64,000 bases of DNA from an uncultured Litoreibacter sp. GTDB lineage: Bacteria; Pseudomonadota; Alphaproteobacteria; Rhodobacterales; Rhodobacteraceae. This document shows, piece by piece, positions 11,575 through 15,825 of this stretch. The stretch lies in NCBI GenBank assembly GCA_947504205.1, contig CANNGL010000004.1, positions 372,001-436,000 on the forward strand. The letters are read 5' to 3'. Each line of letters starts with the position of its first letter. Within the stretch, counting starts at the first letter, position 1. A program made the translations under genes and the position numbers. Below the pieces are notes generated by a model that made no database searches, was not told the origin of the DNA, and was given only the letters and a program-made list of their open reading frames with translations.

Positions 11575-13530
11575 ATGGCAGACGATCTACTCAACCCGTC
11601 AGGTGACACCTATGACGCCTCCTCCATCGAGGTGCTCGAAGGTCTGGAACCCGTGCGCAAACGCCCCGGCATGTATATCGGCGGCACGGATGAGCGCGCG
11701 CTCCATCACATGGTGGCCGAAGTGCTCGACAACTCCATGGACGAGGCCGTTGCAGGCTACGCCAATCGCATCGAAGTCGCCCTGAATGACGACTACTCCA
11801 TCACCATCAGTGACAACGGCCGCGGCATCCCCATCGACCCGCACCCGAAATTCCCCGACAAATCCGCGCTGGAGGTGATCCTCTGCACCCTCCACGCAGG
11901 CGGCAAATTCTCCGGCAAGGCCTACCAGACCTCCGGCGGTCTGCACGGTGTTGGCGCCTCGGTCGTCAACGCGCTCAGCGATAGTATGGTCGTGCAGGTC
12001 GCCCGCGACAAGACCGTCTACGAACAGCGCTTCTCGCGCGGTGAACCGCTCGGCCCCGTCGAGAAAGTCGGCTCCACCCAGAACCGCCGCGGCACCACCG
12101 TCACCTTCCACGCTGATGAAGAGATCTTCGGCCATCACCGCTTCAAACCGGCCCGCTTGTTCAAGTCGATCCGCTCCAAGGCCTATCTGTTCTCCGGCGT
12201 CGAGATCCGCTGGAAGACCGCCATCGACGACGGTGAGACCCCGACCGAGGCCACCTTTCACTTCCCCGGCGGCCTGTCGGACTACCTGAAAGAAACCCTT
12301 GGCCCCGCCACCACCTATGCCGATCAGCCCTTCGCCGGCGCCGTCGATTTTCAGGAAAAATTCAACACGCCCGGCAAGGTGGAATGGGCGATCAACTGGA
12401 CCCCGTCGCGCGACGGCTTCATCCAGTCCTATTGTAACACCGTGCCCACCCCCGAAGGCGGCACCCACGAAAGCGGCTTCTGGGCCGCCATCCTCAAGGG
12501 CATCCGCGCCTACGGCGAACTGGTCTCCAACAAGAAGGCCACCTCCATCACCCGCGATGATCTGACCACCGGCGGATGCGCCTTGGTCTCCTGCTTCATC
12601 CGCGAGCCGGAATTTGTCGGCCAGACCAAAGACCGGCTGGCCACGGTCGAGGCCCAGCGCCTTGTCGAGAACGCCGTACGCGACCATTTTGACAACTGGC
12701 TGGCCGCAGATACCAAATCGGCCGGGGCGATCCTCGACTTTCTCATATTGAGAGCCGAGGAACGCCTCCGCCGAAAGGCCGAGAAGGAAACACAACGCAA
12801 GTCCGCCACTAAGAAACTCCGCCTTCCCGGCAAGTTGGTGGACTGTTCTTCTCAAACACGCGACGGCACGGAATTATTCATTGTCGAGGGCGACAGTGCT
12901 GGCGGCTCCGCCAAAATGGCCCGCGACCGCACCAATCAGGCGCTTCTGCCCCTGCGCGGCAAAATCCTGAACGTGCTGGGGGCCGCCTCCTCCAAGCTCG
13001 GCTCCAATCAGGAGATCAGCGATCTCTGTCAGGCGCTTGGCGTTGGCATGGGCACGAAATTCAACCTCGACGATCTGCGCTATGACAAGATCATCATCAT
13101 GACTGACGCGGATGTGGACGGCGCGCATATCGCCTCGCTTCTGATGACATTCTTCTTCACCCAGATGCGCCCAATGATCGACGCGGGCCACCTCTACCTC
13201 GCCTGCCCGCCCCTTTTCCGCCTCACCCAGGGCGCGCGCCGCGTCTATTGCATCGACGAGATGGAAAAAGAGCAGATGCTGGAAAAAGGTCTGGGCGGCA
13301 AAGGCAAGATCGACGTCTCCCGCTTCAAGGGCTTGGGAGAGATGGACGCCAAGGACCTCAAAGACACTACGATGAACCCCGACACCCGCCAACTGATCCG
13401 CGTCACCATCGACGAGGACATGCCGGGGGAGACTGGCGATCTGGTCGAGCGGCTCATGGGCAAAAAGCCCGAACTCCGGTTCGAGTATATTCAGGAGAAC
13501 GCCCGGTTCGTTGAGGATGTGGATGTTTAG
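11575..13530 (+). CDS. parE: DNA topoisomerase IV subunit B
   Basis: This encodes 651 residues: a GHKL ATPase domain with EVLDNSMDEAVAGYA and DNGRGIP, a transducer domain, then a TOPRIM domain with FIVEGDSAGGSAK and TDADVDGAHI. The C-terminal zinc-finger-like end is short. ParE with ParC decatenates sister chromosomes. Length and the absence of the ~170-residue insertion typical of some GyrB proteins support ParE over GyrB. I chose the ATG at 11575 (MADDLLNPSGDTYDA) with GAGAG upstream. An in-frame ATG at 11548 would add nine residues. parC is not in the window. Confidence 0.93.
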   Translation: MADDLLNPSGDTYDASSIEVLEGLEPVRKRPGMYIGGTDERALHHMVAEVLDNSMDEAVAGYANRIEVALNDDYSITISDNGRGIPIDPHPKFPDKSALEVILCTLHAGGKFSGKAYQTSGGLHGVGASVVNALSDSMVVQVARDKTVYEQRFSRGEPLGPVEKVGSTQNRRGTTVTFHADEEIFGHHRFKPARLFKSIRSKAYLFSGVEIRWKTAIDDGETPTEATFHFPGGLSDYLKETLGPATTYADQPFAGAVDFQEKFNTPGKVEWAINWTPSRDGFIQSYCNTVPTPEGGTHESGFWAAILKGIRAYGELVSNKKATSITRDDLTTGGCALVSCFIREPEFVGQTKDRLATVEAQRLVENAVRDHFDNWLAADTKSAGAILDFLILRAEERLRRKAEKETQRKSATKKLRLPGKLVDCSSQTRDGTELFIVEGDSAGGSAKMARDRTNQALLPLRGKILNVLGAASSKLGSNQEISDLCQALGVGMGTKFNLDDLRYDKIIIMTDADVDGAHIASLLMTFFFTQMRPMIDAGHLYLACPPLFRLTQGARRVYCIDEMEKEQMLEKGLGGKGKIDVSRFKGLGEMDAKDLKDTTMNPDTRQLIRVTIDEDMPGETGDLVERLMGKKPELRFEYIQENARFVEDVDV

Positions 13531-14444
13531 GGCGACCTATTCGGGCAAATCTCCCGCATTAAATGCGCACTGTACTTCAGCGCGTCCGCTGCCTGCTTCA
13601 TACCAAATTTTTTTGAACCGATAGCAACATGCGTACCCGAACGAGCATCTTGAAAAACTACATATAATCCATGTCCAAAACCATGTAACTCAGCGAGAGC
13701 ACCAACTTTTGCCAAGTTGCGCAAGTCGCGCATTTCATTGAACCAAGTCTGATATCCAGTCACCTGCTCTAGCGCCGCCACAAAGTCTGGCTCAGGCTTC
13801 TTGAGTAGATTGTCCATTGAAGTGTGCTTTCCGGGTTGATTAGCATTTTCTGCAAACTCAATCACTGCACATGCAATTGCATCTTGATATGCTCTGCAAG
13901 CATAGAGAAAAGATCTTATCTCCGAAGAAAACTCGCTTTCCGCTTGCAGCCTGAGTTCGAGCGAACCATTCGTTTCCTGCCTTCGTCGACGAATTTGCCC
14001 CAACCTGACTTGAGCAGAAAACATGTTTTGAATTCTTTCCCATTCAATTCTCTCCTGATCGTTGATCTTCGAAGAAAGCATTTGCACGCGGGCGACAAAG
14101 TCGATCTCAGACACTGAAGGCATGGGAGCAATCAAGTTCTCAAAATGGGCGTTCATCTGATCGTCAATCGACCATGGGAGAAGCGCTATGAATTTTTGAA
14201 ACAGTACCTTAGCGCAAGTCTCCATTGCTTGAGCCGCTCCCTTCATTCTTTGCACCGCTAAGACACTTTTGGGGAGATTGTCTGAGGCTAGCTGTATGGC
14301 AAGTTGCGAACTTTTCTTAAGATCGCAAATGGCATCGAAATAATCGTCAAAGACCAATTCCTTATTGGCATCAGCATTCACGGCTTGAGACTCGATGTAT
14401 CCTTCATACTGAGCGTTTAACACTTTACTTATCTCGGGTGCCAA
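13527..14444 (-). CDS. AT-rich hypothetical protein, helical; possibly HEPN-like
   Basis: This encodes 305 residues, mostly helical, with no signal peptide or membrane segment. Its codon use is clearly more AT-rich than its neighbours, suggesting recent transfer. A coiled stretch at roughly residues 120-175 (ERIEWERIQ, RRRRQETNG) precedes two helices. The second contains WFNEMRDLRNLAK, which recalls the RxxxN/H helix of HEPN-type proteins, but the essential histidine is missing. The stop overlaps the 3' end of parE by 4 bp, head-on. Function unknown; the HEPN resemblance is weak. Confidence 0.65.
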   Translation of the reverse strand: MAPEISKVLNAQYEGYIESQAVNADANKELVFDDYFDAICDLKKSSQLAIQLASDNLPKSVLAVQRMKGAAQAMETCAKVLFQKFIALLPWSIDDQMNAHFENLIAPMPSVSEIDFVARVQMLSSKINDQERIEWERIQNMFSAQVRLGQIRRRRQETNGSLELRLQAESEFSSEIRSFLYACRAYQDAIACAVIEFAENANQPGKHTSMDNLLKKPEPDFVAALEQVTGYQTWFNEMRDLRNLAKVGALAELHGFGHGLYVVFQDARSGTHVAIGSKKFGMKQAADALKYSAHLMREICPNRSP

Positions 14445-14459
14445 CGCTTACCGTAGCAA

Positions 14460-14490
14460 GCGTAGGGTGGGTTTCTAACCCACGCGTCAC
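14460..14490 (+). repeat. REP palindrome copy 1
   Basis: A 31-bp element starting GCGTAGGGTGGG, with its dyad arm CCCACGC after a short TTTCTAA loop, ending GTCAC. It is identical base for base to the copy at 14665-14695. Confidence 0.85.
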
Positions 14491-14540
14491 TGGCAATCAA
14501 AAAAACCGCATTCCCGACCCACTTATGCAAAATCTCTACG

Positions 14541-14572
14541 CTCCGCGTGGGGTTAAACCCCACCCTACTCAC
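14541..14572 (-). repeat. REP palindrome copy 2 (inverted orientation)
   Basis: A 32-bp element, CTCCGCGTGGGG then TTAAA then CCCCACCCTACTCAC. On the minus strand it carries the same GTAGGGTGGGG core. It pairs with copy 1 as a head-to-head unit and is identical to 14747-14778. Confidence 0.85.
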
Positions 14573-14664
14573 TCACTTTCCTCGTCTTCGATCCAAACGA
14601 CCGCGCATCGCTGTCCCGCGGGGTGGAGATCCGACCTCTGAGCCAAAGCGCATTGTGGCAACAC

Positions 14665-14695
14665 GCGTAGGGTGGGTTTCTAACCCACGCGTCAC
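14665..14695 (+). repeat. REP palindrome copy 3
   Basis: Identical to copy 1 and placed 205 bp downstream of it, with a partly similar spacer. This suggests that a two-REP unit was duplicated in tandem. Confidence 0.85.
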
Positions 14696-14746
14696 CGACA
14701 CTCACACAACCACGCGAGCCCACGCACCCTTCGCAAATGCTCCACA

Positions 14747-14778
14747 CTCCGCGTGGGGTTAAACCCCACCCTACTCAC
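14747..14778 (-). repeat. REP palindrome copy 4 (inverted orientation)
   Basis: Identical to copy 2 and 206 bp downstream of it; closes the second head-to-head REP pair. No gene is seen between 14445 and 14992; the rest of this interval is low-information GC-rich sequence. Confidence 0.85.
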
Positions 14779-14926
14779 ACCGACCGGCGGCCTGCGCCAC
14801 GCGGAACACGCAACGTCGCAAACCCCGCCGGATCCGACTCCGCGCGCAAAAACACACGAACACCACACCGCATCGGCGCTTAAATATCGACGCATACCGC
14901 GCCATGCCCAATTTCCTCCCGGACGG

Positions 14927-14953
14927 ACGTGGGGTGGAACCCCACCCTACGCG
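14927..14953 (-). repeat. REP palindrome copy 5, at the 3' end of the RAYT gene
   Basis: ACGTGGGGTGG then AA then CCCCACCCTACGCG, a near-perfect dyad carrying the GTAGGGTGGGG core on the minus strand. It lies 40 bp beyond the stop codon of the RAYT transposase gene. Confidence 0.85.
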
Positions 14954-14992
14954 GTGCCGCGCCTGTGTCATGGACGCCGGGCGGCCGCCACT

Positions 14993-15529
14993 CTACTCGC
15001 CGAAATCGCCTTGCGTGACCTGCCCGGTCCATTCCGGGGCCACGCGGCCTGCTCGAATGTCCCGATGTATTGATGAAAACGGCCAATCCACCACCCGATC
15101 CACCAACCCATGTTTCACCGGATTGCCCCAACAATATTCCACATGCGCCCGGTAATCGGCCTCATCCCGAATGCAATGCTCCCAAAACCGGCGTTGCCAC
15201 ACTTTGCCTTCCTGCCGCCGAATTTTCGACTGAGACCGGCGCGCGGGGTGAACCCGCACCCTGCGGGTGAATTGCGCCTTTATCGCCGCCCAACGGGTGG
15301 AAAAATCGGCATCCCCCGGCGGCAAAGTCCAAACCGCATGAAGATGGTCCGGCAAAATCACCATCGCATTGATCTCGAAGGGTCGCACCAGACGCGTTTC
15401 GGCGACGACATCCCGGAGATGCTCAATCTCTCGCACCAGAAGGTCTGATCCGCGTTGCGCAAGATTGACCGTGAAAAAGAAGCTTCCACCTTTAACGGAG
15501 CTGCGCCGATACCAAGACATGACCCTCAC
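14993..15529 (-). CDS. REP-associated tyrosine transposase (RAYT)
   Basis: This 178-residue single-strand transposase belongs to the Y1/IS200-like HUH family. The metal-binding HUH pair is seen in DHLHAVW (H62, H64), and the likely nucleophile is Y132 in EYCWGNPVKHGLV. The family opening YRRSSVKGGSFFFTVNL and KVWQRRFWEHCIRDEADY are also clear. RAYTs cut and mobilise REP palindromes and are normally domesticated single-copy genes. REP copies lie 40 bp past the stop and 30 bp before the start, inverted relative to each other, with two more pairs beyond. All key residues are intact. Residue 1 or 4 may be the start. Confidence 0.93.
   Translation of the reverse strand: MRVMSWYRRSSVKGGSFFFTVNLAQRGSDLLVREIEHLRDVVAETRLVRPFEINAMVILPDHLHAVWTLPPGDADFSTRWAAIKAQFTRRVRVHPARRSQSKIRRQEGKVWQRRFWEHCIRDEADYRAHVEYCWGNPVKHGLVDRVVDWPFSSIHRDIRAGRVAPEWTGQVTQGDFGE
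15241..15265 (-). repeat. REP-like palindrome inside the RAYT coding sequence
   Basis: GCGCGGGGTG-AACCCGCACCCTGCG closely matches REP copy 5, differing by a few substitutions and single-base gaps. It encodes residues 89-97 (RRVRVHPAR) of the transposase. Homology to the flanking REPs is inferred from this similarity. Confidence 0.55.
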
Positions 15530-15558
15530 GCTACCGGCTTATGGGTTAATACTTGATT

Positions 15559-15585
15559 GCGTAGGGTGGGTGTCCAACCCACGCG
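15559..15585 (+). repeat. REP palindrome copy 6, upstream of the RAYT gene
   Basis: GCGTAGGGTGGG then TGTCCAA then CCCACGCG, 30 bp before the RAYT start codon. It is in inverted orientation to copy 5, so the transposase gene is bracketed by REPs. No gene is seen from 15530 to 15825. That stretch also holds a short run of CCATACGC-type repeats (about 15635-15700). Confidence 0.85.
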
Positions 15586-15825
15586 CCGCGCCACCCCGCA
15601 GGAAGGCGATCAGATCGCTGAGCCCAAGCGCTTTGTGCCATACACGAGCCATACGCCCAGCCATACGCTCTGCCATACCCTGCGCCATACGCCGACTTCC
15701 CATGAAAATAAGGCCCTTCGACAACAATTTGCCCGGCCCATCCCGTAGACCACCCCAACATGCCTTTGACTCACACCGCTGCTTTCCCTAACGTCATCTG
15801 CGGATGTAGTTTTCGAGGATTTTTC

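Follow-up and report, generated by a model that had tools for sequence, protein, structure and literature searches.

A probable REPtron on an E. coli-type RAYT in an uncultured Litoreibacter, from a lineage that often carries REPs inside the gene and at its stop codon

RAYTs flanked by inverted REPs with which they coevolve have been described repeatedly, together with local clustering of REPs, GTAG heads used as stop codons and REPs lodged in assorted genes (Nunvar et al., 2010, PMC2817692; Di Nocera et al., 2013, PMC3733652; Quentin et al., 2018, PMC6006769; Corneloup et al., 2021, PMC8266576). In the E. coli TnpA_REP, residues G160 and E161 contact the GTAG and K82 contacts the bulge of the stem (PMC8266576). 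Cases of locally confined REPs are known (PMC2817692), and the Marinomonas REPtrons Ma and Mb resemble the locus reported here in that their REPs crowd near the RAYT rather than genome-wide (PMC8266576; similar cases in PMC2817692); they differ by their REP sequences, and the relevant passages of PMC8266576 do not mention REPs within the gene. Palindromes in frame within genes, as well as GTAG stop codons, were described for the Rickettsia RPE elements and intragenic REPs, but in assorted host genes, whereas here they are found in the very transposase that presumably mobilises them (PMC3733652). Closest to our case, REPs in frame inside tnpA_REP genes of subclass 2.4 (RAYT group 4) were reported by Quentin et al. 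(2018, PMC6006769), where the insertion occupies a variable domain between β3 and αC and is called unique to that subclass. Our literature search found no report of internal REPs in group-2 RAYTs, nor of a correspondence among internal, terminal and genomic REPs, which is weak evidence of absence as supplements lay outside its reach. The subject bears on two broader questions, namely how RAYTs and REPs stay matched and why RAYTs persist without transposon-like spread.

The DNA analysed here, hereafter the window, is a stretch of 64,000 nucleotides of an uncultured Litoreibacter sp. (Rhodobacteraceae), covering positions 372001-436000 of contig 4 (C4) in a genome of 3.79 Mb assembled in 10 contigs. 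Within it, 1.13 kb holds six GTAGGGTGGG hairpins and an open RAYT gene. The preliminary description of this DNA had proposed six REPs sharing the GTAGGGTGGG core around a RAYT, and all six could be located, each copy forming the head of a hairpin of 22-25 nt, with heads at 14462(+), 14568(-), 14667(+), 14774(-), 14950(-) and 15561(+). Two further REP pairs had also been announced near the gene; these take the REPIN arrangement, with GTAG heads outermost. REP 1 (14462-14486, +) and REP 2 (14544-14568, -) are the left and right halves of REPIN 1 (14462-14568, 107 bp, single-strand DNA fold z -3.66), and REP 3 (14667-14691, +) and REP 4 (14750-14774, -) those of REPIN 2 (14667-14774, 108 bp, fold z -3.59); when the two REPINs are aligned, the REP arms are identical and the spacers have partly diverged. 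The remaining pair faces the gene with its heads, REP 5 (14926-14950, -) lying 42 bp downstream of the RAYT stop and REP 6 (15561-15585, +) 31 bp upstream of a GTG start or 40 bp upstream of an ATG start, in agreement with the inverted copies at about 40 and 30 bp first noticed. The RAYT is enclosed, as in a REPtron, between two inverted GTAG-headed REPs at 14950(-) and 15561(+). Chance is ruled out for this cluster because the GTAGGGTGGG 10-mer occurs only three times elsewhere in the 3.79 Mb genome. Some 60 bp farther out than REP 6, a tandem 12-bp repeat (GCCATACGC..) occupies 15648-15692.

The coding sequence of the RAYT (TnpA_REP) spans 14993-15529 (-) and encodes 178 aa from the GTG at 15529 or 175 aa from the ATG at 15520, the latter being the more likely start when aligned to the E. 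coli TnpA_REP. The gene is intact as had been claimed, with an open frame that ends in GE followed by TAG and with H62, H64 and Y132 (GTG numbering) all present; Y132 aligns to Y115 of E. coli. Its assignment as a RAYT in a REPtron-like setting is supported by the NCBIfam model REP_Tyr_transpos NF047646 (185.9 bits for a cutoff of 80, E 3.5e-55), by 86 identities over 161 residues aligned to the E. coli TnpA_REP, terminal GE included, and by the structure of the same protein (4er8), which is both the best solved-structure match by sequence (E 3.8e-51) and the first Foldseek match of the AlphaFold model (pLDDT 90; TM 0.82/0.88). The Pfam profile Y1_Tnp scored 19.3 bits on this protein, under its cutoff of 23.

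The likeness to the E. coli REPtron thus extends to the HUH and Tyr residues, the C-terminal GE and the flanking inverted REPs, and the window protein appears to be of the group 2, subclass 2.2 type. We take the lineage as subclass 2.2-like because of this similarity to E. coli and of the site of the insert discussed below. There are differences: in the alignment, the E. coli protein lacks 14 residues at the loop where family genes carry REPs; the position of K82, the bulge-contacting residue of E. coli, is occupied by Ala in the window RAYT and by either Ala or Ser in 95 of the 119 family genes; the internal REPs of the family are mostly unbulged hairpins; and copies in the window genome are few. 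The insertion of subclass 2.4 lies between β3 and αC, whereas the one described here follows helix 76-91, itself after the HuH, and precedes strand 116-119. If helix 76-91 corresponds to αC, as the description in PMC6006769 suggests, the window lineage does not have the subclass 2.4 insertion, and internal REPs of group 2 would form a different case.

Outside its cluster, the GTAGGGTGGG family is scarce. The core was found nine times in the whole genome, six of them in the window cluster, and a reversed control pattern gave 10 matches, so that a family spread through the genome, for which the preliminary description had proposed a search, was discarded. Two of the three outside copies are hairpins (C2:61943 and C5:29921) and one is not, and with 8 such hairpins over its 3.79 Mb the genome falls short of the abundant cognate REPs of a REPtron. 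A looser REP pattern (25 rows vs 13 for the control) revealed two other REP types. One, GTAGGGTGCGTG, belongs to a second intact RAYT at C2:25320-25799 (L011:1495-2057), 61% identical to the window RAYT, where it is paired over and after the 3' end; the strict hairpin scan found no internal REP in this second gene. The other, GTAGGGTGCGCG/GTAGGGTGCGCGTTCATGCGCAC, has six heads, one of them a variant, at C2:800421, C2:818133, C5:2339, C5:17709, C5:28994 and C5:29026 in the looser scan, none of which is located at any RAYT found in this genome. The terminal REPs of two RAYTs of other genomes (L111 and L135) resemble this GTAGGGTGCGCGTTCATGCGCAC type. A RAYT remnant of about 68 codons also lies at C4:221869-222072 (L012).

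The history of the locus could be followed thanks to a parE/gyrB-type gene (Pfam; 11575-13530, +) that marks it in related genomes. The parE query was found in 19 of 21 genomes of the genus, two giving no match, and the downstream region was compared in 18 genomes including the window, G005 being left out as only 0.8 kb of its contig is available there. Between parE and a cytochrome c-like gene, four of the 18 harbor a RAYT (the window, G001 and G015) or a remnant of it (G007, in which REPs are retained around the remnant), and GTAGGGTGGG is present at this interval in these four only; that the RAYT came in recently as a mobile insert is for this reason disfavoured. The three RAYTs form one group in the gene tree (SH-aLRT 89, branch not starred). 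The simplest reading is that of an inherited locus lost in most species, and repeated insertion at one place could also have produced it. Between parE and the REPs lies a 305-aa frame (13530-14444, -) for which Pfam gave nothing at E 0.01; tblastn likewise failed to match it in the 4.3-5.2 kb starting at parE that were compared in 17 relatives.

To situate this gene, RAYTs were searched in 394 genomes of the family at E 1e-20 and detected in 117. Loci from this search, from the genus search and from named records were pooled; 146 were used, 145 matched and 132 were left after removal of identical matches. Setting aside six fragments, a frameshifted gene and six non-family loci, 13 in all, left 119 full-length family loci, among which some genomes contribute more than one gene and a few genes are near-identical (such as L064 and L090). 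The internal scan, which prescribes only that the head read GT[AG]G and that the stem be rich in GC, found a REP-like hairpin in frame in the α3-β4 linker (codons 86-104) of 53 of the 119 genes, no internal hairpin in the other 66, and 11 hairpins outside the linker below codon 150. GTAG-headed internal copies are present in 50 genes, as a sense and antisense pair forming a REPIN (23), as an antisense copy (21) or as a sense copy (6). All 29 sense heads share one codon phase, and the 44 antisense heads are in phase 0 (36), 1 (7) or 2 (1). In the AlphaFold model of the window RAYT the linker (91-111) is a low-confidence loop, about 65 for a core above 90, that leads from helix 76-91 to strand 116-119, and the same holds for L066. 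At the other end of the gene, the stop codon is the TAG of the GTAG of a terminal REP in 61 of 119 genes, or in 66 if a GTAGG at the stop is considered sufficient. RAYT matches were obtained in four of 190 genomes of a class-wide sample, two being outside the family, and in eight of 86 genomes of a phylum-wide sample, six being outside the family; in a small sample of non-family RAYTs, 15 loci (two of them overlapping copies of one gene) showed no internal hairpin in the linker.

The internal copies match the other REPs of their own genome. The internal and terminal REPs could be compared at 36 of the 53 loci, the others having no GTAG-headed internal REP or no GTAG-headed terminal REP within 90 nt. 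The seven bases following GTAG (the tag) are the same in the internal REP and its own terminal REP in 27 of 36 genes, for 5.0 by random pairing and a maximum of 13 in 5000 trials, and differ by more than one base in five. When the terminal REP of the closest relative whose terminal differs is taken for comparison, the gene's own terminal REP is the better match in 31 of the 36 genes and the poorer one in five. Moreover, three REP classes were counted over the 394 genomes, those summing to fewer than five being entered as 0, and the internal class was the most numerous of the three in its own genome at 37 of 40 loci (permuted mean 17.0, maximum 28 in 10000). These 40 come from 47 loci, seven of other REP classes having been dropped, and six of the 53 are absent as their genome is outside the 394 or they have no GTAG head; L145, which has two classes, was scored by a single one of them, and the counts include the gene's own few copies. 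Examples of genes carrying the three classes are L070 (GGCGGGG), L055 (GGTGGGC) and L161 (GCCGGGC). The three misses are G114, G152 and G160, of which the last two hold a second RAYT with REPs of the commoner class (L103 and L058, respectively); no second RAYT was seen in G114. Given the known coevolution of RAYTs with their REPs, part of this match is expected.

We consider it probable that the window carries a REPtron on an E. coli-type (group 2) RAYT, of a lineage that often has internal and stop-codon REPs re-copied from those of the genome. By analogy with the E. coli TnpA_REP, the RAYT would recognise the single-stranded REP hairpin through its GTAG head and cut it with Tyr132, and would help copy REPs and REPINs, in the window genome mostly next to the gene. 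In many members of its Rhodobacteraceae/Roseobacteraceae lineage, the hairpin also sits in frame within the loop that connects α3, the DNA-binding helix, to β4, with a further copy at the gene end whose GTAG head serves as stop codon. These internal and terminal copies were most likely re-copied or converted from the active REPs of the genome, with selection keeping the frame open, which would be the reason why they match the common REP class, the match itself being a covariation. More tentatively, the internal REPIN may be a working part of the gene, a built-in copy of the substrate kept in step with the specificity of the protein; we see this as a possibility and lean against it. If true, protein and target would move and evolve together as a unit, and for a RAYT not yet characterised the coding sequence itself would reveal the cognate REP family.

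Among competing explanations, the internal REP could be a passive passenger without function, derived from one or a few old insertions in a harmless loop and inherited without exchange. The single codon phase of the 29 sense heads and the low confidence of the insert loop are in line with this, as is the suggestion, made for the insertions of subclass 2.4, that they may scarcely affect activity (PMC6006769). On the gene tree, the insert is also clustered, with 16 changes vs 39 when shuffled, and only three gains or losses are forced by starred branches, so that few origins followed by inheritance may suffice. Against it, the distance between internal tags follows that between terminal tags (r 0.57) and hardly the protein distance (r 0.16), the partial Mantel correlation of internal and terminal tags given protein distance being 0.55 (P 2e-4), and the internal class tracks the REPs of the genome at the 37 of 40 loci given above. 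Furthermore, conservation at third codon positions of internal REPs (head omitted) greatly exceeds that at the fourfold sites of these genes, with agreement of 0.83-0.85 vs 0.40-0.42 in 71 pairs that share a terminal tag, pairs that also share ancestry and are thus non-independent, and of 0.65 vs 0.43-0.45 when pairs were taken without this choice. We regard a mere passenger as unlikely.

Similarly improbable in our opinion is that the locus is an ordinary REPtron only, in which the gene and its six REPs are everything and any REP-like stretch inside the gene is due to chance. The strict scan indeed finds no internal REP in the window gene, and the copies in the genome are few. The stretch in question, GCAGGGTGCGGGTTCACCCCGCG (15264-15242, - strand, in frame), has a GCAG head and no antisense arm, and its fold (z -1.17) is not significant. 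Moreover, the linker measures 19 aa, hardly more than the 17-18 aa of most genes that have no insert, and the reading of this stretch as a relic therefore rests on alignment with the two nearest genes. These are L038 (G015) and L044 (G001), which carry internal REPs at the same place and group with the window gene in the tree with the SH-aLRT of 89 given above; this argues against chance and suggests a probable decayed internal REP. The RAYT stop codon likewise sits in GTAGAGTGGCGGCCGCC (14980-14996, -), a GTAG head without a stem, no 5-bp stem being found, which is probably a decayed terminal REP. With an internal GCAG, no antisense arm, a terminal stem gone and outer REPs intact, the arrangement is probably decaying, and the locus would represent an ageing REPtron.

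Still less plausible is that the hairpins within the gene and at its stop codon are RNA elements, kept because they limit RAYT expression or protect the mRNA. Control of RAYT expression by hairpins has been proposed (PMC3733652), the stop codon lies inside the hairpin in the 61 of 119 genes mentioned above, and L066 has an internal REPIN that is highly stable when folded as DNA (z -9.2). However, such a role needs a stable hairpin and not the current REP class of the genome, which the internal copy tracks. As for hairpins arising by chance from GC-rich linkers, they were ruled out by codon shuffling, which over 20 runs left a hairpin in 3.55 loci on average and in no more than 6, vs the 53 observed.

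At the scale of whole genomes, RAYTs and REP abundance go together over the 394 of the family. At least five REPs of one of the three classes were counted in 75 of the 117 genomes with a RAYT vs 31 of the 277 others (odds ratio 14, P 7e-26), and at least 15 in 48 genomes with a RAYT vs nine without. The same description held that repeats in strains devoid of RAYT would speak against the pairing, and such strains do exist in part, as the latter nine genomes have no RAYT at E 1e-20 (G097, G339, G025, G391, G249, G023, G258, G278 and G359) and G007 has REPs with a remnant only. The nine may have lost their RAYT or may hold a more distant one.

Genes whose internal and stop-codon REPs match those of their genome would allow the specificity of a RAYT to be predicted from sequence alone, as the 37 of 40 loci suggest, and would offer direct tests a large natural set of proteins paired with their substrates, covering three or more classes. 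At five loci (L138, L140, L143, L158 and L159), the terminal palindrome has a GTAA head instead of GTAG and the stop is therefore TAA, which would amount to a changed guide sequence; all but L143 fall in one clade (SH-aLRT 98). Finally, L062/L146 (G066) and L090 show either two RAYT matches in tandem or one RAYT with an additional C-terminal half behind it, and REPs lie between these parts or after them.
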